Below, in pieces: positions 3,859 through 27,884 of a DNA stretch of 64,000 nt (within the stretch, counting starts at the first letter, position 1; each line of letters starts with the position of its first letter). Origin of the DNA: Salvia splendens (Eukaryota > Streptophyta > Magnoliopsida > Lamiales > Lamiaceae); contig NC_056036.1 of NCBI RefSeq assembly GCF_004379255.2, positions 36,780,076 through 36,844,075 of the forward strand. Reading direction: 5' to 3'. Under the pieces are notes generated by a model. It was not told the origin of the DNA. It made no database searches and saw only the letters and a program-made list of their open reading frames with translations. The position numbers and the translations under genes are program-made.

Positions 3859-4025
3859 TGTAACGACCCGCTAAGACGATATTATTAGAAATAATAATGA
3901 TGACGCAATTATATATATATATATATATGTATATATAAGTGACTTTTTGCGTAATTAATTTCGAACTACGATAGAGTGTTGTTTACGATGGAGTGTCGTT
4001 GTTGTTGTTTCTTATGTTAGCCAAG

Positions 4026-4028
<3 letters not shown>

Positions 4029-4066
<38 letters not shown>
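4029..4066. repeat. (TA)n array, left border of the TIR-element cluster
   Basis: An uninterrupted TA run that ends exactly where the TIR GGGATGTATTCATTTCC begins. Further TA arrays at 10354-10386, 10676-10726, 11041-11066 and 12446-12466 separate the following elements. Confidence 0.9.
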
Positions 4067-4069
<3 letters not shown>

Positions 4070-5410
4070 ATGTATTCATTTCCTTTTCCTATATTTCCTC
4101 CTTTTTCCTTTTTAATCTCAACCCTTAAATACGTTAATCGGATGGTTGAAAAAATTGCTGATTCCATTTAAATTTAATTAAGTGAAAATCGATTAAGGGT
4201 AGATTTGGTAGAGATTTACTTGTTAGTTATGGAAATTCCATGATTCTCTCATTGGCAAATATTACGGTTTTTTTACTTCTCTCCCCTCGAAGAAGGACGA
4301 CACGGCGCAGGCGTATATGATTATGCATCGCTAGTTTTTTGCAAGGTTTCAATTATCACACATCTCAATTCTATCGTTAATCAGTCCTCGGCAGTCAGAG
4401 GTTGGTCTTAATCAATGGAAGAAGGTAAATTACGAATCAGCCTGACTTTGTTTATGCTTCGGATGCTTCAGTACAAGTTGTAGCAGTTTGATTATCTGAT
4501 TTTTAATCACCAATTAAAGCGTCTTTTGTGTTGCCATGGTATAACATTACTGCTTGCAGTCAAAACTTTGTCCATGGATTCGCTTGCATCATATGTACAG
4601 TATTATGTTGAAACGAAGCATGTAATGCACATATTGACGAAATGTAATGAACTTAGTTACCTATATAATGCATCATTCGTGAGCGGCAATGTTGCCGGTA
4701 AAATGATTTTGTCGGGTTTGCGATTTGTGGCGCACGTAGCTTGTTTCCCCTAAGGGTTTGATAAACCTAGGGGCTAGGGTGTAGTATGTAACCATTAATA
4801 ACAATGTTTAACAAATCTTTGTGTTTGACGTACAACTATTTTACGTAAGCTCTTAAAAGTAATGCATAAACGGAATATACTTAATGCTCTATTCCGTATC
4901 TATGATGCATACCTTTAATGATATTACGTAAGTTTGTAAAAGTAATGCATAAAGTGATTATACTTAATGCTCTATTCTGTATGTATAATGCATACCCATA
5001 TTACGTAAGTCCGTACAAGTAATGCATAATGTGTATATACGTAATGCTCTGTACTGTATGTATAATGCATAATATTTTATTTGTAATGTGTATGTTGTAC
5101 GAATCAAGATAGGTATGATTTTATGTCTCGTTTTCCAAGTGCGTAAATATCGGTTGTTAGCTTTTAATTATAGCATACGTTTCTTGTTTTCCCCAAAGGG
5201 TTTAATAATGGTAGGGGGTAGGGTATAGTATGTTCAAATAAAAAACAACGTGTTTAATAGCGTGTGTTATACGTATGCATAACTCACGTGTTTGTCCAAC
5301 TGAATAATTTGACATACTGAATACGTGCAAAATCGTGCATTACTTGTCAGCATATTATATTGCGAAGTTGTTATTTTATGCTGACCCCTTTTTTTCCAAT
5401 TGTGTACAGT

Positions 5411-5538
5411 GGTTGTTGTACCTGAATGTCCTCCTGAGGTGAAGCCTGTAGTAGGTCAGAAATTCCAATCATTGGATTTTGCTTTCGCTTTCTACGACGT
5501 GTATGCCCGCGCAGTTGGCTTTGATACGCGGTTATAAA
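5411..5538 (+). pseudogene. FAR1-type transposase exon fragment, copy 1
   Basis: After an acceptor-like GTGTACAG the plus strand encodes PPEVKPVVGQKFQSLDFAFA, then FYDVYARAVGFDTR, and then a stop (TAA). This matches the start of the FAR1 DNA-binding domain, a WRKY-GCM1-type zinc finger found in FAR1/FHY3 proteins and in their parent MULE transposases (G-x-x-F-x-S-x-x-x-A-x-x-F-Y-x-x-Y-A-x-x-x-G-F). Only this exon piece survives. No DDE core was found downstream, so it cannot encode an active transposase. Confidence 0.7.
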
Positions 5539-6007
5539 TCATTCATTTGGGGTTTTGGTTTAGCTTTTGGCGTGGCTAGGGTAGTAGTTTAAAACGATAC
5601 AAATAATGCAACAAGTGATGATGTATAATGAATTGAATTGAGTATATAATGCATAATGCATAATTCGTGTTTGGCATTAAATGGATACATATAATGCACC
5701 AAATGGTTATGCATAATGATATCTATTGCCTGTATAATGCATAATACGTTGGATGACTTAATGAAGGACCGCGAGTATGCCTCATTCCTTTACGGTTTAG
5801 ATGTGCCGTGTTTCGATGTTTGGAACACGTTTCTTGTTTACCCTAAGGGTTTAATAAGCCCAGGGGCTAGGGTATAGTACATACACGTATTTTTGCTAAT
5901 TTACATATTTAACCGAATAAAGTTATAAAAAAGGTGCATTACTTGTCAGAACAATCGATTGCTACATTGCACATTTTTGCTAACCTCTTTTTTTGCGTTT
6001 GTGTATA

Positions 6008-6305
6008 GAGAGTGTTGTTCGTGAATGTTCTCCGGAGCTTAAGCCTCATGTCGGTCTGAAATTCCAATCCTTGGAATTCGCTTTTGCTTTTTACGAGGTA
6101 TAAGCCCGCCCAGTTGGCTTTGATACGCGCAAACAAGCGATGAGAAAGGTCGATGATGTCACAACCTGGTATCTCGTAGTATGCAATAGGGAAGGAAAGA
6201 AGAAGTCGAACGAAGATGACCAGTTGAATGCCCGGTCGGGTTTTAGTATCTAGCGGAGGAAGTTATCTAAGCGTTGTGGTTGTAAGGCTAGTATATCTTT
6301 CAAGC
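6008..6305 (+). pseudogene. FAR1-type transposase exon fragment, copy 2
   Basis: This is a second, longer copy of the same exon. It encodes ECSPELKPHVGLKFQSLEFA and then FAFYEV, a stop, and ARPVGFDTRKQ. It continues through TTWYLVVCNREGKKK to KRCGCKASISFK, the usual second half of the FAR1 domain. In-frame stops (TAA for the expected Tyr, then TAG near 6252) show decay. The upstream acceptor and the stem-loop motif at 5841-5880 are shared with copy 1, whose motif is at 5191-5230, so the two arose by duplication of a unit of roughly 620 bp. Confidence 0.72.
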
Positions 6306-6929
6306 TTGAGTTATGTTCTTTAAACACCACATCACAGCTTTTGTTTGGGTCCTAGTAGTATTGTTGTTCAAATCTTTGTCGTAGTATTATAAGTTGAAAC
6401 ATGTGGTTTGTTGCATTAGTAAACTTTTTCTGTTCATTAATGGATTATATATCAGTCGAGTACTATATATATCTGTGAAGTTAACTCAATGAAGTATCCA
6501 TGACGCCATGGATACTTGTGTTCCCTACTGTATGCAAAATAATGAGCATTTGTTGATGCATAATGCACTCCTTTAATCAAATAATGCACATATCTATTCT
6601 CCGTATCTATATCCACTTTTCAAAAAACAATGCAGCACATAACATAAGTAATGTCAAATTTTATTTGTCTGATGCGGACAATGATAGTTCACAAATGTAA
6701 TATACCAAATACGAAAGTACGTAAGAAACTAAACAATTACACTACTGTTAAGGACTACAAAACCAATTTACCCATATAAACAGGACAAATCTTATAATGC
6801 ATAATATAATATAAATAATGCCTTTGTATGTATACATAATGCACTGCATAAATAAACGTACTACACATAATACATTTCTGAATAAGTGCATTATTTGTTT
6901 TACATCTTGCATTATTTACTATGTCATTT

Positions 6930-7190
6930 ACATTACGTGGAATATGATAAGGATTCAACTGCTTCAAGCAATTAAGGAATTCTGACGGCATTCGCCGACA
7001 ATAGAGTCGATCACCTTTTCGACCTGTAGGTTGATTTGGCTCACCCTCACTTCTAGACGTACTTGGGCCTACATCAGCCAATCTCTTTCTGAATTTTTTT
7101 GCCAACGCAACTGGTATAATGTCGTCCACTGCGTCGTCTATCTTGTCTCTAAGCTGCTTCTCTAATATTAGCAACCAACACAACACATCA
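6930..7190 (-). pseudogene. Unrecognised minus-strand coding-like piece inside the MULE
   Basis: Within a longer minus-strand frame (7426-6755), the central part reads LRDKIDDAVDDIIPVALAKK and then FRKRLADVGPSTSRSEGEP, with balanced composition and an acidic/basic pattern like a real protein. The rest of that frame is hydrophobic only because AATGCA repeats translate that way. It is probably a late exon of the gene starting at 8140. The family is not recognised. Confidence 0.35.
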
Positions 7191-8092
7191 GAAAATATCA
7201 CCAACTCAAAGGACAACATGATAGGAGTTGTGTAAGTTTGTTGTGGGAAGTGCATTAAGTTAATCAACACCCGGATACTTAATGCATAAAACAGAATAAA
7301 AAATGCGTATGACAAAGCAAATAATGCGTTAAACAAAGCAAATAATGCACATGTATTAATCACAACAAATATTGCCTCAGTCAGAACACATAATGCATAA
7401 AACAGTACCCATAATGCGTTTGTCAAATCAAATAATGCACTTATTACAATCAGATAAAATATTTGTCAATTTAATCAAAAACCTGAAACTTAGTTTCTGA
7501 TACGAGGCAATTAACAAATACAATCAACACCGCTGATGTGCTTACTATACTCGTAATAGTTAACTACACCGGCTGCACAATGGCAGATTCTAATAATACC
7601 ATGTTATAATGCATACTATACTTAACATAATGTACATTTCATAGGACATAATGCATTGTCTAAACCCAAAAATGCACATGTATTACACCAAAAAACTAGT
7701 AACCAATATCAAGAATACAACTCATAATGAACCATAAACTACAGCATATGCATGATTACAGATTTATGATGCACTTCCCACACCAAACAATAATCAGATT
7801 TATACTTTGCCGGAGTTGCTTAACCCCCGTAGCCAACACCCGTGTTAATGCATAATATAGCCAACATAATGCAAAAATCATGTTAAATAATGCATAGTAC
7901 AACATAAATAATGCACAAATATAATTTTGTCAGAGTCTAGTCAGTAAAAAACACAACACCCGCAATAATGCATCATTTACTTCACATAATGAAACCTACA
8001 TATACACATAATGCAATAATCCAACATGCAATTATCCTTCCACAAAATAGACGGATAAAATATTGAATAGCACAAGCAGCGCCGCAAATATA

Positions 8093-8140
8093 CCTGCAGC
8101 TTGGGATGGTTGTGAGCGCGGACGTCCTCGCTTAGGCATT
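8093..8140 (-). CDS. First coding exon of an AT-hook protein (partial)
   Basis: On the minus strand an acceptor (CCCGACAG) is followed by ATG at 8140, the short frame MPKRGRPRSQPSQAAG and a donor (CAG|GTATAT). RGRPR is the core of an AT-hook, which binds the minor groove of AT-rich DNA. Upstream (about 8520-8380) is a 5'UTR-like, CT-rich leader with its own donor (CAAG|GTACGT). Later exons are uncertain; 7190-6930 is a candidate. The gene runs opposite to the FAR1-type exons, so the element may have held two opposing genes. Confidence 0.4.
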
Positions 8141-8919
8141 CTAAATCTGTCGGGAAATAACCAAATCAAACACCAAATCCATGATTTCAAACGCAAAACA
8201 CAAAAACCACAGTAGGATGCAGAGAAATTTCAGCCCAAACAATATAAACCACTCGGATAACAATATCCATGCTTTTATACCCAAAACAATAAAATTCAGT
8301 GTGAATTTCATGAGCCGCGACAATTGTCGCTGTTCCAGTTTATATTTTTCGTGGCTACAACAAAATTACAGGAAAGTAACGTACCTTGACGCCGATATCG
8401 GTTCGGTCTTAGCAACGGTGGAGGGTGGGTGTTGAAATATTGGACGATTTCTTCAATGAATTCAGAGCGGCGAACGAGATCTAGGGTTTAGATAGTGGAG
8501 AGAGTGGAGAAAGGGTTTACAAAGCTTAATGACCGAGAATGAAGAGGCGGATGTTTCAAATCCCAAAAATTTCGCCATTTCCAAATTCTGGCAGTTCTAT
8601 TTGGGTAGAATGACACTTTTAGCCTTATAATGCATAAACACAAGTTCCATAATGCAACACGGATAAATATTGGTAGTAGAAATCTGGACCGTTGATTAAT
8701 ACAATCTAACGCCTATTAATAAGAAGAACAAAGGATGTTAGTATTGAAAAGGAGAATAATGCTATCCTTTTTCCTTCTTAATATTACGCGTTAGATCTAA
8801 GGCATCAACGGATCAGATTGATTCTATAAAACTGGTTCCGTGTTGCATTATAGAAGGTGGTTGTATGCATTACAGGGTTATTATTGACATTTGACGGAAA
8901 AGTAACTGCCACATTTTGG

Positions 8920-10190
8920 TATCTGCGAATAATGCACCACATGGTCACGAGTAATGCATATAATTGACTATATAATGCACAATATGTTAACTGCAATGCA
9001 TACGAATAAGATGTACCATGTTATGATGTTTGGACACACGTTTCTTGTTTCCCCTAAGGGTTTAATAAGCTTAGGGGTTAGGGTATAGTACGTAGACACG
9101 TATATAATCTTCACATGGTAACGAGTAATGGATATAAGTGACTATATAATGCACAATTTGTGAACTGCAATGCATACGAACAAGATGTACTGTGTTATGA
9201 TGTTTGACACACGTTTCTTGTTTCCCCTAAGGGTTTAATAAGCTTAGGGGCTAGGGTATAGTACGTACGCATTAATAACAAATTATAAAACGATACGAAT
9301 AATTCACCAAATTGTCACGAGTAATGGATGTTATTAACTATATAATGCACAATATGTGAACTGCAATGTATACGAATAAGATGTACCATGTTATGATGTT
9401 TGACACACGTTTCTTGTTTCCCTAAGGGTTTAATAAGCTTAGGGGCTAGGGTATAGTACATAGACATTACTAACAAATTGTTGTTATTGGAATATACGTA
9501 TGTGCATTATTTGGTTTAGGTAGTGCATTATGTAGCTGTTAATTGTCATTATCTCAATATATTATGCATTATTAGAGGTATTGTGTATATGGGTTAATCA
9601 ACGGATTGAAGATTACATACGTGCATTTAGTAATGTCTACGTACTATACCCTAGCCCCTAAGCTTATTAAACCCTTAGGGGAAATAAGAAACGTGTGTCA
9701 AACATCATAACATGGTACATCTTATTCGTATGCATTGCAGTTCACATATTGTGCATTATATAGTTAATAACATCCATTACTCGTGACAATTTGGTGAATT
9801 ATTCGTATCGTTTTATAATTTGTTGTTAATGCGTACGTACTATACCCTAGCCCCTAAGCTTATTAAACCCTTAGGGGAAACAAGAAACGTGTGTCAAACA
9901 TAATAACACAGCACATCTTGTTCGTATGCATTGCAGTTCACAAATTGTGCATTATATAGTCAATTATATGCATTACTCGTTACCATGTGAAGATTACATA
10001 CATGTCTACGTACTATACCCAAGCCCCTAAGCTTATTAAACCCTTAGGGGAAACAAGAAACGTGTGTCAAACATCATAACACATCACATCTTGTTCGTAT
10101 GCATTGCAGTTCGCATATTGTGCATTATATAGGCAATTATATGCATTACTCGTGACCATGTGGTGCATTATTCGTAGCGGTTTCCAACCT
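8920..10190. repeat. Large imperfect palindrome built of ~180-bp tandem units
   Basis: The left arm (about 8920-9480) and right arm (about 9620-10190) are inverted copies around a centre near 9550. Each arm has three units carrying an AATGCA phrase, an ATGTTTGACACACGTTTC-like stretch and the stem-loop motif. RNA from this stretch would fold into a long hairpin. Confidence 0.8.
9051..9092 (+). repeat. Stem-loop motif, representative copy
   Basis: CCCCTAAG...CTTAGGGG, an 8-bp stem with an 11-nt loop, is followed by GGGTATAGTACG. Further copies lie at about 4747-4790, 5191-5230, 5841-5880, 9224-9266 and 9420-9460, and inverted at 9640-9682, 9837-9877 and 10009-10050. Some copies (5191 and 4747) have imperfect stems. 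Confidence 0.8.
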
Positions 10191-10351
10191 AGATTAGATT
10201 ACTATTGTACCCTCATAATGCACAAAATAGGACAAATAATGCAACACGGGATTAATTACCCAATGTTGATCTTGACCGTCCATTTCTCTAATCTAATGGC
10301 TGATATTAAGAAGGAAAAAGGAGGAAATATAGGAAAAGGAAATGAATACAT

Positions 10352-10386
<35 letters not shown>

Positions 10387-10389
<3 letters not shown>

Positions 10390-10671
10390 AGATGATCAAA
10401 ATAAGTATGTGTTTAAATCCAGAAATGCAGACCAAATCTTGGCCCTAGGATTAGATGATCTAATGGTCAATAATTAACCAAAAACACGGAAGGTCATAAT
10501 TAAGCAATTTTAGGTCATATTATAATATTTGGATTTAATGTCAAGCTAAGATCGTTTTAGGTCATGCTTTGTTAGCATGACCTAAAAATTACCTAATTAT
10601 GACCTAAAAGTGCCCTAATTATGATATTGTTCTGCGTTTCTGTATTTAAATCTAGTTTTGCATAGATCAAA

Positions 10672-10675
<4 letters not shown>
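10387..10675. mobile_element. 289-bp TIR element (MITE) between TA arrays
   Basis: The left end is GGGAGATGATCAAAATAAG and the inverted right end is GGGTTTTGATCTATGCAAAA. Similarity continues inward (TTTAAATCCAGAAATGCAGA against TTTAAATACAGAAACGCAGA). Both ends touch (TA)n. The interior holds mirrored GACCTAAAA phrases and no ORF. It is a non-autonomous element of unknown parent, likely MULE-related by position and target. Confidence 0.75.
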
Positions 10676-10726
<51 letters not shown>

Positions 10727-10729
<3 letters not shown>

Positions 10730-11040
10730 TGTATTCAAATCCTTTTTCCATATTTTCTCCTATTTCCTTCTTGATCTCAGCCCCACGATTTTGTCATCCG
10801 ACGGTTAGATTGATGCCACGTGTCATTTAATAATGCAGATTTTCAGTTAAATAATGCACACCGACTAATAATGCACCGTTATAGTGTAATAATGCAGATT
10901 TTCAGTTGAATAATGCACACCGACTAATAATGCACCATTATAGTGTAATAATGCAGATCATCTGGCCCGTTGATGAATGAGATCTAACGGTCCAGATTAA
11001 GAAGAAACTTAAATCTAAGGGGAGAAAAGGAGTTTAACAC
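10727..11040. mobile_element. 314-bp TIR element between TA arrays, related to the big MULE
   Basis: The left end (GATTGTATTCAAATCC...) resembles the TIR of the 4067-10353 element, including the following CTCCTATTTCCTTCTTGATC. The right end is a degenerate inverted copy. The interior has about two copies of a 59-bp unit (from 10831, 10890 and a partial from 10949) containing AATAATGCA words, the same vocabulary as the big element. No ORF. Confidence 0.72.
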
Positions 11041-11066
<26 letters not shown>

Positions 11067-11081
<15 letters not shown>

Positions 11082-12445
11082 TCGTGATCAGATGATAACC
11101 CCTAAATATCGTAATAACCCTATAACCAAATCTGGACCATACATATTTCTAATCATGCGGTTGAGATTCAAACTTAGATTTACTTCATAAAAAAAACGCG
11201 GGGGTAAAACTGTCATTTCTCTCATTTAATTTCTGAATTTTGCCAAATATCACGTAAAATGGTAAAATGATAAAATGATAGGTTTATTGCATAGAATGAT
11301 AGTTTTGAGATTCAAACTTAGATTTACTTCATTAAAAAAAATGCACGGGGGTAAAACTGTCACTTCCCTCATTTAATTTCTGAATTTCGCCAAATATCAC
11401 GTAAAATGATAAAATGATAAAATGATAGGTTTATTGCATAGAATGATAGTTTTGCCGGATAGAATGATACTCTGAGTTGATAAAATGATACTTTTGACTG
11501 ACTGATAAAATGATAGGTTTATTGCATAGAATGATAGTTTTGCCGGATAGAATGATACTCTGAGTTGATAAAATGATACTTTTGACTGACTGATAAAATG
11601 ATAAAATGATAGGTTTATTGCATAGAATGATACTCTGAGTTGATAAAATGATACTTTTAGCTTATAAATGTTAGGTTTACTGCATAAAATGATAGTTTTG
11701 CCGGATAGAATGATACTTTCAGCCGATAGAATGATAGTTTTGCCGGGTAGAATGATACTTTCAGCCGATAGAATGATAGGTATTTTTGGTGTATAAAATG
11801 ACATTTTTGTTTAATAAAATGATACTTTTATCTGATAAAATGATAATCTAAGCGGATAAAATGACAGTAACCTTATAAAAATGATACTCTGAGTTGATAA
11901 AATGATACGTTTACTGCTTTGTAGGTTTGTATATTATGTATTGTGCCGATTATATTAGGTTTATTGCATAGAATGATAGTTTTGCCGGATAGAATGATAC
12001 TCTGAGTTGATAAAATGATACTTTTGACTGACTGATAAAATGATAAAATGATAGGCTTATTGCATAGAATGATAGTTTTGCCGGATAGAATGATACTCTG
12101 AGTTGATAATATGATACTTTTGACTGACTGATAAAATGATAAAATGATATATGTTAGGTTTATTGCATAGAATGATAGTTTTGCCGGATAGAATGATACT
12201 CTGAGTTGATAAAATGATACTTTTGACTGACTGATAAAATGATAAAATGAGCGAAATTCAGAAATTAAATGAAAGAAATTTGGATACGTAAATTTTATCA
12301 TGAGCGAAATGACATATTTACCCCCACGCTTTTTTTTTATGAAGTAAATCTAAGTTTGAATCTAGACCACGTGATTTTAAAAATGTGGTCCAGATTTAGT
12401 TATAGGGTTATTACAGAAATTGGGGTTATCATTATAATGCACCCC
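11067..12445. mobile_element. 1.4-kb TIR element filled with an AATGATA minisatellite
   Basis: After (GA)n (11067-11082) the left end runs GATGATAACCCC...ACCCTATAACCAAATCTGG. The right end (12250-12445) is an inverted match, continuing through TTCAAACTTAGATTTACTTC, for well over 100 bp. Both ends lie at (TA)n arrays. The interior (about 11260-12250) is a higher-order repeat of roughly 85-bp units made of RAATGATA words with short linkers. Apparent ORFs there are translations of the repeat and not genes. Confidence 0.78.
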
Positions 12446-12466
12446 TATATATATATATATATATAT

Positions 12467-15393
12467 GTATGTATAATAAAAGAATCAGATCCCAAAATAA
12501 AAATCTTAATGCTCGGTACATTCAACAAATGTCCAACAAGATTTAATTTCTACATCGTGCGTCGAAGAAGGCGGGTACGTCAACAAGAGCAGCCCGAACT
12601 GGAATTGGTTTTTCCTACACCAAATCAAACAAATAAACAAATAAATATTCTAAATAATTAAAGTAATGCAAGTTAAATAATAAAACAAATATAAAATAAA
12701 CCGGCAGATTCTAGAGGATCGATTTTTCCGACAGCAGCATTAAATGTTGCATTTAATGATAGCAGGCTAATCATATCTCCTGACAAAGGAGAATAGTTGA
12801 GAAAGGGATGTCGGGGCACTTGCATTCCTTACACTTAAATACCGTCACTTTCACCTCCCCCACCCTCCTACCAAAATTTACTCATCTCCAAGAAGCAGCA
12901 AGAATCCTTCCACCATAGTAGGGGAAAAGGACGTCCACATCATAGAGGAAAAGTCCAAAAACAACAAGTCTTCTTCACACCACAGAAGTGAGTACCATCA
13001 ACACCTCACTTTTTTCCACATATTACAACATATTGCATATAGGCAATTTAACACCTCAACACCTCACTTTTTTCCACATATTACAACATATTGCATATAG
13101 GCAATTTAACACCTCAAGAACATAATTGCTATAGCATCTCAAGAACATAAAAATGGCAGATCCTCAAAGGATAATAGGAACTTAGCTTGAAATGACATAG
13201 GAGTCTGCCGGAGAGGCTTCCGGGAGCGAGCTCGGCACTCCATCGCCGACGGTGACAGCCCACGCTCCAAAACCGTCTGTCTGTTTTCTTTCTTTTGAAT
13301 CTGAAAATTTTGAATTTAACACCAAAGCTATTAAATTTGAAGATAAAACTTGAGAATACAAAACATATAAATGAAAGATTAAGTCTTTATAGAAATTAAA
13401 CAAAAGAGAAAGAAAGTTAAAACTTAACCATACTTGTCGATACGACGACGGTGATAACCGACGGAGAGGGGGGCAGCAGCGGTGGGTTGCCGCCGTGTGC
13501 AGCAACGGCGAGGCGAGGAGGCCGAAGCCGCCGCCTGTGCATGCACAGTGGCAGCGGCAGCAGAGCCGAAAGAGAAGAAGAGAGGGAGAGATAGGAGAGA
13601 AGAGAGGATAGGGAGAGAGGGAGAGAAACCGAGAGAGAGAGAGAGTACAGATCTGTTGCTGTCCGGAGACGACCGGACTGCCGAGAGGAGGGCGGCAAAG
13701 CCGCTGCCTCTGCGTGTCGGTGGTGAAGAGGGAGAGAAGAGAGAAGAGAGAGGAAGAGTCGGCGACGACGGCGGACGGTGGCGCTGAGGATGGCGGCGGC
13801 TGTAGCAGCAAGTGAAAAATGGGGTCTCTCATTTTAGGCTTACTGTAGAGTGAGGAAGATGATGAATGGATATACATGTGGGTTTTGTGTTAATTGATTG
13901 GACTAGCATTTTATTTACTTGGGCCAAGGGAGTGAGGAAATTAATATGAGCCTAGTCCTTAAAATCATAATGGTTGTTTTAATCGGAGGGAAGCCCAATT
14001 CCAAAATTTATTTATGTTTTGGGCTGAAAATAAAAGGGAGTCTTCATCTAGCTTAGAAAATAATATCTTCTGGGAGCAAATCTATTATTAATTTTTTTTT
14101 GCCTAAGTTTTAGAACAAGATTTCTTTAAGGTTTATATTAATAATTATCTTATGATTTCTTCTGATGTAACTAGCTAAAATAATTGATCTTGGGATTTAT
14201 ATTAGAAGTTTTGCGTAAAATTTGTAGTATGGAACGTCACTTAATCGGAGCCGAAATAGAAAATGAAGTAGTAATAGATAATGTAAGTTTTGGAAATTTC
14301 TTAATGAAGAATAATAATACTAATAATAGTAATAATGTTAATTATAATAATAATAGGGTTAAACCTTGAGTTTTTCTTTCTCATTTAATTAGATTAGTTT
14401 AAAACTAAATTAGTACTTTCCTATTGTGATGTTTTTAAAAAGGGTACGTTCGCAAGTAAAGTCGGAACGAAGGATTCAAGTTAAGGGAACTAAACGATCA
14501 AGGTGAGCTTTCTTATACTAAAAATACAAATCGTATTTTATGAAAACACGAACACATGTTCGTGATTTTTTTTAAAGATGTTGTCTTGCCATAAATGTTT
14601 TTGTATGATGCATTTCTGTTTGGCTAAGGCCAAGTGAATTATGAATGATAATACAAGTCGAATTCAGGTCCCAGTGAGGGTGGTGTCCCCGCTCGAACTA
14701 GTGTACACGGGATACCTCTGACCGTGAACGGCAGAGAAGGTGACCGTGGAAGGTGGTCACCTTCCCTGCACAAGGATACCTCTGACATGTTGGGCAGAGA
14801 AGGTGATCGTATGAAAACACCATCTCAGCGGCACAAGATGATCAGATATGGCTAACTACAGGAGAAAGGGTCCAATGTGAATATATTTAGTAAGCTCGGG
14901 TCTTTTCAATAAAACCCCCGAGTATTATTGTGATGATTACTTGACAATATTTTCAAATGTATATTGTATATTTCGGCAATGTGTTCACTGAGTACTTTTG
15001 TACTCAGCCCTGCATATACTTCTAAATGTGCAGGTTGAGTCGTGGAAGGGGGGACAAGTGCTGTGGAGAGCAGGCTATTAGCTAATTAAGAATAAAACTC
15101 TCGGAGGTTCATATCTCCACACATGGACCGCGTTCTTTTGCTTCCGCTGTGCCGGTTAAGAGGCAGTGCCTATTTTACTTTTGACTCTGATAATCAGAAC
15201 TTGTATGAACAGTCGTTCGATTTTGCATGATCGAGTGTATTTTGTTATAAGTATTTCCCTTTCGACTTTATTTTGTGTGTCTCGTTCTGCCTTGGCTCTA
15301 ATTTCCCCTAAATTCTATCCCCGCTTATTATAATCCCTCCTTAGTCACGATTTTCCCGAGTTATGCTATCCTTAGCTAACTGCGGTCGTGACA
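12467..15393. other. Right part of the interrupted solo LTR
   Basis: This stretch resumes after the TA arrays. It holds a 58-bp tandem duplication starting at 12999 and 13057 (CAACACCTCACTTTTTTCC...). It also has a CT/GA-rich stretch (about 13440-13800) giving long but low-complexity frames on both strands, and a GC-balanced block (14640-15390) ending in the LTR terminus. No gene is supported. The direction of LTR transcription is not established. Confidence 0.55.
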
Positions 15394-26527: not shown

Positions 26528-27884
26528 CATTCCACAAATTATACAACTGTTACACATAAAAGAAGAATAAAAAAGGTCGATATTCTCTATTCAATACTAA
26601 AACCATATAGTATAAAATTAGGGTTTGTATCTATTTGTCCTATATATACAGGGTAACAACTTTACACAACTTTTCAATTGTCTCCACCGTCTTCCAAATC
26701 AAACTACGTTTTCGCCTATTCAGACCTCTCTCCACCTTCCATATTTAAATTGAAACTGCGTTAGCTCATTCTAAGCTCTTCCTGCAAAAAATAGAATTCT
26801 GTGTAATTTATTCTTTGGTAATTTACATTTTTTGCTTTCCTTTTAGATCCAGATCTATAAGGTAAAATCATTTAATATCGATGAATTTCCTCAGTTCTGT
26901 TGGTTTTCCTTGTGCAGTACTTGCAGTGAACAATGGCGAACATCTGCGTAAAAGTTGAAGACGATTTCTTCAAAAGGATTGAAGATATTGTTAAAATAAT
27001 AAATGAGTTTTTATTTTTTTATTGTTATTACCTTGCACCTTTGTAATAGATAGGCAAATAAAATAAAATGAGTACACAAACAAATGATTAAATAAATAAA
27101 ATATAAAAAAAAAGCGAAAAGGAAACAATACTAAAACCCAAAGAATTAAACAACAAAGATTTTACCTTTATAATCTGCAAAATAAGAAATCATTAGCGTT
27201 TAATGAATTAATGAATAAATTTAAAAAAAAACATTAAACAAAACAATACTAAAACACAAAGAATAAATTACATAGATTTTACCTTTATTATATGTAAAAT
27301 AAGAAATGGTTAACCAACAGTGATTAATTCGAAATAAAAGAAAATAAGAAGATGAAGAGAGATATAAAAGTAACAGTAATACTAAAACACAAAGAATAAA
27401 TTACACAGATTTTACCTTTATTATCTGCAAAATAAGAAATGATTAATAAGTAGTGATTTATTCGAAATAAAAGAAAATAAGAAGATGAAGAGAGATATAA
27501 AAGTAACAGTAAGAGTGTAGAGAGAGAAATAAGAACCTGGAATTTATAATTGAGTGCAATTGCAACTGATATTTATAGAGAAATTTCTGAGTATTTCAAA
27601 TTCAAAATTTGTTTCCCTCCTATTTTTTGACTCTAAGAAACGATTCATGTAGAAGAGGGAAAACCCCCTTTTTTTGGGGAAAAAACTCTCTTTTTTTAGG
27701 GGGCAAACCCTCATTATGCAATTGTTTGAATTGTATATACATATAGATGATGTGTATATATATAAATGGTGTGATGTAATCAGCTTTACAACTAATTAAA
27801 AGGCTTTTAACCACTGGATTTAATGCATAAAGTGTGTACTCTCATTTAAACTATTGGTTAATACATTTGAATTGGTGAATGGCA
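26528..27884. other. Promoter-like stretch, short ORF and ~120-bp diverged repeats
   Basis: Near 26640 a TATATATACAG precedes a CT-rich leader. An ATG at 26933 opens MANICVKVEDDFFKRIEDIV but the frame stops after 37 codons. From about 27120 to 27500 a unit containing GATTTTACCTTTATTATCTG repeats three times at ~120-bp spacing. This may be the broken 5' part of the unknown family that flanks the young LTR element. No complete gene is seen. Confidence 0.35.

Follow-up and report, generated by a model that had tools for sequence, protein, structure and literature searches.

Mutator-like elements (MULEs) that lie in (TA)n tracts have been described from other plants. Closest to the locus presented here are the SaTar elements of guayule, rice, sorghum and citrus, in which different MULE families follow one another in uninterrupted rows linked by TA, some of the members being larger MULEs with a similar terminal inverted repeat (TIR) (PMC5907723). 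In Medicago, the MuTAnT miniature inverted-repeat transposable elements (MITEs) are a MULE family found in (TA)n whose empty sites hold fewer TA repeats, and a putative autonomous member, AutoMuTAnT, encodes a protein similar to the Jittery transposase (PMC4486113). The pineapple Ac-mMITE elements, Mutator-derived and TA-targeted, are clustered with TA between them (PMC8449440). Here we analyze a row of TA-separated elements in a stretch of 64 kb from Salvia splendens (C5:36780076-36844075, forward strand), referred to as the window. The row is very probably a SaTar-type array of MULEs that target TA tracts. Its architecture, the TA targeting, the MULE assignment and the larger MULEs in rows are already published in the accounts of SaTar, MuTAnT and Ac-mMITE. 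New are the species, on which the papers listed by our literature search for such elements gave no report, a link to a transposase, related empty sites and, as a hypothesis only, arrays of short motifs that resemble VANDAL targets. A likeness to rice Micron was pointed out in a preliminary description of the locus; the SaTar paper includes Micron as rSaTar2 and classes it as a MULE (PMC5907723).

A row of five elements joined by TA runs

The window holds seven TA runs of at least 10 bp, five of them at element ends (4030-4066, 10354-10386, 10676-10726, 11041-11066 and 12446-12466). The only others are at 3910-3928, as part of a host repeat, and at 27755-27764. Between elements the runs measure 33, 51 and 26 bp, and at the two outer borders of the row 37 and 21 bp. 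Its five members stand in the order E1a, E1c, E2, E3 and E4, and within this row no nested insertion was seen. The features are listed below, where P0114 is a FAR1-MULE protein of S. splendens and the C16 element a relative of E1a; throughout, C numbers are contigs and L numbers loci fetched from the 806-Mb genome.

4026-4066, no strand: left TA tract (TA run 4030-4066, 37 bp), host repeat to its left
4067-8763, plus strand: E1a, non-autonomous FAR1-type MULE of about 4.7 kb, left end GGGATGTATTCATTTCC, final bases lost at the fusion
5406-5537, plus strand: FAR1-like N-terminal coding stretch, first copy; translation resembles the start of P0114 by eye, no match in a Pfam scan
6014-6260, plus strand: FAR1 exon, second copy, with in-frame stop; PF03101 at E 0.00097 and 20.2 bits, under the family cut-off of 28.1
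6302-6303, no strand: deletion point, 1.77 kb absent relative to the C16 element (blastn blocks)
6949-6957, no strand: second deletion point, about 4.4 kb absent relative to the C16 element (blastn blocks)
6956-8139, minus strand: remnants of a convergent second gene, from open frames; MPKRGRPRSQPSQ at 8139 as a possible start, and another exon near 7170-6960
8763-8764, no strand: E1a/E1c fusion point, from comparison with L101, L102, L011 and L019
8764-10353, minus strand: E1c, same clade as E1a, GGATGTATTC end at right, left end lost (comparison with L011 and L019)
10354-10386, no strand: TA run, 33 bp
10387-10675, plus strand: E2, MITE of 289 bp, ends GGGAGATGATCAAAATAAG...AGATCAAAACCC, at least 40 genome matches at 100%
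10676-10726, no strand: TA run, 51 bp
10727-11040, plus strand: E3, short element with TAATGCA motifs, end related to E1
11041-11066, no strand: TA run, 26 bp
11067-11078, no strand: (GA)n stretch, from the TA run to E4
11079-12445, plus strand: E4, about 1.37 kb, AATGATA repeats, ends GAGTCGTGATCA and (right, reverse) GGGGTGCATTATAATGATAACCCC
12446-12477, no strand: right TA tract (TA run 12446-12466), then host repeat

The preliminary description had seen four elements with distinct TIRs, all ending exactly at TA arrays. The TA-separated row is real, but it has five members, as the element starting at 4067 is in fact two; the boundaries of four related loci rule out 4067-10353 as a single element. 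L101 (C15) and L102 (C3) match the window at 98.7-99.1% from about 5745 to 8763 and then stop at ...AATGCTCCCC, followed directly by TATATA; beyond this CCCC/TATATA end their flanks are unrelated DNA. Near the left end of E1a, genome copies are only about 84% alike (L019, L023). Positions 8764-10353 belong to another element, which lies in the opposite orientation; its relatives, L011 and L019, extend about 31 bp past 8764 to a TA run, starting with GGGGAGCGTTATTC or GGGGAGCCTTATTC. Missing at the 8763/8764 junction are the tip of E1a, a TA run and about 31 bp of E1c. Fusions of neighbors by deletion are reported from guayule clusters (PMC5907723), and this junction is of the same kind.

The idea of four unrelated TIR families also had to be given up, as the 10727 end of E3 is related to the E1 ends (scores of 63 and 66 against the two), whereas other cross-family pairs score 13-22. 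Note that the inverted repeat of E3 is weak, its own two ends scoring only 18 against each other. As for the exact ends, TA runs do stand at the borders, but some borders are eroded: compared with GGATTGTATTC, the form more often found, the 10727 end is one G short, E3 is without the CCC that most other copies have at the right end, and (GA)n intervenes before E4.

Such (GA)n or (CT)n stretches between a TA run and an element end occur at window positions 11067-11078 and at L002 and L093, and may have arisen by growth of the GAG at the tip of an end. For 11067-11078, comparison with an E4-type end beside L055 suggests that it probably grew from the GAG tip of E4.

Copies in the genome end at TA runs

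End searches scored the best 40 of 1,197, 1,386, 1,409 and 1,431 candidates, so that the copies covered are the most similar ones and the copy numbers are lower bounds. From 41, 41, 44 and 40 listed matches of E1, E2, E3 and E4 we examined 30, 30, 20 and 20, a set of 100 that includes the window's own two (L003, L071) and 98 copies outside the window. In 27/30, 29/30, 16/20 and 16/20 copies, respectively, the element end lies no more than 4 bp from a TA run of 10 bp or longer. Together these are 88 of 100 ends, against 390 of 20,000 random positions in 80 longer loci and 5 of the 51,000 positions at 13000-64000 of the window. The proposed insertion at TA tracts is supported, with 12 ends of this most similar set lacking such a run. 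Immediately outside the end, the dinucleotide is TA in 90 of the 100 copies.

As in SaTar, the ends are flanked by microsatellite, mostly TA, and different families are joined by it into rows, in the window and elsewhere: across the TA run, another recognizable element end was found in 41 of the 88 cases. This count used 23 known end strings, partly read by eye, with 2 mismatches allowed, and at least one string matched nothing. The neighbors come from many families. Sequences bordering TA runs fall into 170 clusters, of which 26 are present in at least two loci; some are shifted versions of others, so that the number of families is below 26. Fourteen of the 26 start with G, and position counts favor GGGNNGTGATCAA.

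The row might instead be a segmental copy of an array built elsewhere rather than the product of serial insertion at this site, and some loci do share flanks, for example L017/L027 and L020/L021. However, many different families stand across TA runs and three paralogues of the host repeat lack the row (see below); on these grounds, no search aimed at the five-element order elsewhere having been made, we consider such an origin extremely improbable.

Among 23 E2 copies picked for an identical first part, the remainder differs by 1.2% on average, and these copies are therefore young.

Other recurrent ends beside TA runs at L001-L100, absent from the window, include GGGTAGTGATCAAG, GGGTTGTGATCAAT, GAGTCTCATTATTC and GGGTCTTCATCTAC; they appear to represent further TA-targeting families.

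Target duplications and related empty sites

FAR1-type MULE transposases, a P0114-like one in the case of the E1 end, would excise the elements and, by cutting TA-rich tracts with a stagger of 10 bp, insert them there. A pure TA target would be (TA)5; as this is the same on both strands, either flank of an insertion would have no less than 10 bp of TA, in a fixed phase (TA/GGG...CCC/TA). For E2, 25 of the 27 copies with both ends visible have the phase TA/element/TA, as expected of a duplication of even length, for example (TA)5, but not of a 9-bp one. The E3 copies are less clean, in part because of GA or lost bases at their borders.

Duplications were compared for 42 copies of E2 and E3 with both ends, 26 of which have (TA)5 on either side. 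The other 16 comprise four with duplications, four uninformative ones with TA only and eight without duplication. Two copies in imperfect tracts carry exact 10-bp duplications, TATATATTAG at L056 (E2) and TATACACTAT at L066 (E3), and thus lie within the 8-11 bp range of MULE target duplications. At L056 the 10 bp were read from the flanks, as the script gave 9 bp after stepping back over an extra G. L076 and L067 show 9 and 8 matching bases. As had been predicted, the duplications readable at imperfect targets are TA-rich. Some members of SaTar rows likewise have 10-bp duplications (PMC5907723), whereas those of MuTAnT, a single family as opposed to the several that form rows in S. splendens, are of 9 nt, and the ends found here differ from the MuTAnT TIR GGGGTTTGCTAGAACA (PMC4486113).

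The authors of the SaTar paper favor a different model, in which elements circularize with microsatellite filler and enter existing microsatellites by homologous recombination; they report flanks unfit for cut-and-paste (PMC5907723). The eight E2 and E3 copies without duplication, and the (GA)n or (CT)n at some ends, would agree with this. Exact 10-bp duplications at imperfect targets, a TA phase fixed on both sides of E2 and the short TA tracts at related empty sites argue against it, and for the elements studied here we regard recombination as improbable.

A search for empty sites, suggested in the preliminary description, gave related ones. On both flanks (3900-4025 and 12467-12900) the host DNA belongs to a single dispersed repeat, several copies of which match at 88-96%. 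Seven other places reach at least 88% identity, two of them partial, and five were fetched (L108-L112). Three of these paralogues, L108, L110 and L112, run unbroken from the left flank of the window (82-89% alike) to the right flank and represent related empty sites. Where the window has the row, these three have TA-rich tracts of 25, 25 and 20 bp, in which the longest TA run measures 10, 10 and 16 bp, respectively; at the filled site, TA adds up to 168 bp across five runs.

At L111 similarity is lost near the site, and L109 has half an E2 at the right border. The left flank of this C9 copy (L109 and L113) was not found within the 2.5 kb fetched, and it is therefore counted neither as an empty site nor as an independent insertion. 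Among the fetched loci a stricter comparison gave no insertion polymorphism. A looser one gave 128 pairs, of which the 40 inspected look like artefacts of internal repeats.

The difference between 168 bp and 10-16 bp of TA could also mean that it is mostly the elements that produce the runs, by adding or expanding TA on insertion, and that the choice of site is merely for AT-rich DNA. Empty sites of the maize TAFT elements, with 6-8 bp of TA, are cited as expanding on insertion (PMC5907723). In all three empty paralogues, however, a TA run of at least 10 bp is already present at the spot, and the duplications in imperfect targets are themselves TA-rich; both speak for TA tracts as the target, and we rate this reading as unlikely. 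The numbers are compatible with the self-propagating landing site of the preliminary description, although slippage could supply part of the added TA and the sites compared are paralogues, not alleles.

A FAR1-type transposase linked to the E1 end

E1a retains two FAR1-like stretches, one of which contains a stop and scores below the Pfam cut-off. It also holds what is left of a convergent gene. The FAR1 exon at 6014-6260 is 83% identical to P0114 across 82 aa. The exon model of the convergent gene is inferred from its open frames, which gave no Pfam match.

A more informative relative is found on C16, with its left end at about 22805747. This element starts with AGGATGTATTCATTTCC after (TA)5, with an E2-like MITE (77% alike) directly outside, and is collinear with E1a except for an extra 1.77 kb at window position 6302/6303 and about 4.4 kb near 6955. 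The 1.77-kb segment encodes the catalytic part of a FAR1-MULE transposase. By this comparison, E1a is a deletion derivative of a FAR1-type MULE. P0114, a protein of 742 aa from a cluster of 25 member sequences, contains PF10551 (MULE, E 4.5e-27), PF03101 (FAR1, E 6.6e-13) and a SWIM domain just over the cut-off, and is 84-88% identical to the C16 pieces.

A P0114-like catalytic match lies 1.1-3.0 kb inside, on the same strand, at no fewer than 12 of 40 E1-type ends (0.004 expected), and 8 of these 12 matches are stop-free. The count is a lower bound, since 28 of 95 P0114 matches and 14 of 40 FAR1-exon matches were entered. The 12 ends are not all independent: two pairs, L017/L027 and L020/L021, have flanks in common, and several of the ends are near one another on C14 and C15. 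Each of the 12 follows a TA tract, the shortest being four repeats at L010, and at L011 GAG stands between. A FAR1-type MULE with the same end, as the preliminary description had asked for, is thus present, and a MULE transposase resides inside elements sharing the E1 end. The preliminary description held that the FAR1-bearing member could identify the mobilizing enzyme; a P0114-like transposase is the likely one for this end, the only end whose TIR we find common to a larger MULE. A single transposase for the whole row is not supported, as the E1 end is the only one linked to a transposase here.

SaTar rows, too, include larger MULEs with similar TIRs (PMC5907723). They differ from those of S. 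splendens in species and sequence. What S. splendens adds is the link between the E1 end and a FAR1-type transposase for which there are catalytic matches without stops; the text of the SaTar paper makes no mention of FAR1 (PMC5907723). For Ac-mMITE, of which there are two families, the text at hand likewise describes no linked transposase (PMC8449440).

The S. splendens FAR1-MULE proteins of 700-759 aa include P0114, P0153 and P0160, which represent clusters of 25, 37 and 29 member sequences. Only two genome matches of P0114 reach 99%; the others are at 94% or below.

The C16 element (L107 and L104, plus strand of the loci) has a second gene convergent to the transposase. The frame tested has few relatives, 6 proteins, the only named one being an uncharacterized S. 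splendens protein, and Pfam found no family at a meaningful score in the second-gene frames tested. One frame in L104 is reminiscent of the C-terminal motif of Ulp1-like proteases, which Pfam does not find.

Short motif arrays

TAATGCA occurs 54 times in 4067-10353 and 7 times in E3, and AATGATA 40 times in E4; 30 second-order Markov simulations gave expected numbers of 5.9, 0.8 and 3.6, respectively. The motif of E2 did not exceed the most frequent word of the simulations. E1a has 36 copies of TAATGCA (7.66/kb) and E1c 18 (11.32/kb), and tandem repeats explain part of the density. All 30 E1-type loci carry 4-12 copies in the 1.5 kb inwards of the end, 261 in total; of 420 words composed of the same letters (median 3), none is more frequent. 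On the outer side we counted 96, and 19 of the 30 loci have none; those present probably come from adjoining E1- or E3-type elements. In the 9.5 kb fetched of the C16 element, the transposase coding part has a single TAATGCA (0.49/kb) and the remainder 34 (4.54/kb).

Dense, family-specific short motifs in non-coding parts of MULE-type elements are also a feature of VANDAL elements in Arabidopsis, where VANC proteins recognize family-specific short motifs that build up as tandem repeats (PMC5735166). The motifs differ from those found here, where no VANC-like gene was seen, and the likeness is drawn as a resemblance only. For motif arrays in FAR1-type MULEs, the literature gave no lead. It is conceivable, if rather doubtful, that each TA-targeting family has its own dense motif in non-coding DNA, bound by an element-encoded protein, candidates being a sequence-specific, VANC-like anti-silencing factor (possibly the second gene) or the FAR1-type transposase, and that rows share open chromatin. 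On equally tentative grounds, the motifs would be TAATGCA for E1 and E3, AATGATA for E4 and perhaps TAGGTCAT for E2, kept in short non-autonomous copies. If true, the crowding of families that differ in motif at a single TA site would give them a shared neighborhood of open chromatin, a reason for rows beyond target choice.

A model for the row and its implications

In the proposed sequence of events, a TA-rich tract of about 20-25 bp in the host repeat would have grown into five elements. The TA runs left by an insertion would lengthen and become targets of the next, so that different families align end to end; a later deletion would have fused E1a and E1c. We infer that the enzyme itself prefers TA, as well as in which order the elements came in and that the runs grew longer; E2 and E4 would be mobilized in the same way.

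Several observations weigh against this model. The 12 ends without a qualifying TA run belong to the most similar copies, 40 being scored per family out of 1,197-1,431 candidates. The phase TA/element/TA is seen in just 4 of 15 E3 copies, and 8 of the 42 two-ended E2 and E3 copies lack a duplication. None of the empty sites is allelic. The C16 transposase is broken by frame changes and has about 35 residues without a match to P0114; the completeness and activity of E1-type copies are putative. The class of E4 is read solely from its TA target and terminal core. On balance, the mechanism put forward in the preliminary description is largely supported, and the phenomenon itself is known.

Plants with TA-stacked MULE rows now include S. 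splendens, a member of the mint family. Both the footprint, locked in phase, and the related empty sites are evidence against recombination as proposed for SaTar elements and argue for insertion with a 10-bp duplication. One row family is now tied to a many-copy FAR1-type MULE transposase, some copies of which are stop-free in the catalytic match. Through this link the targeting becomes testable, both as to which part of the transposase may choose (TA)5 and as to whether the TA runs left behind would recruit the next insertion.

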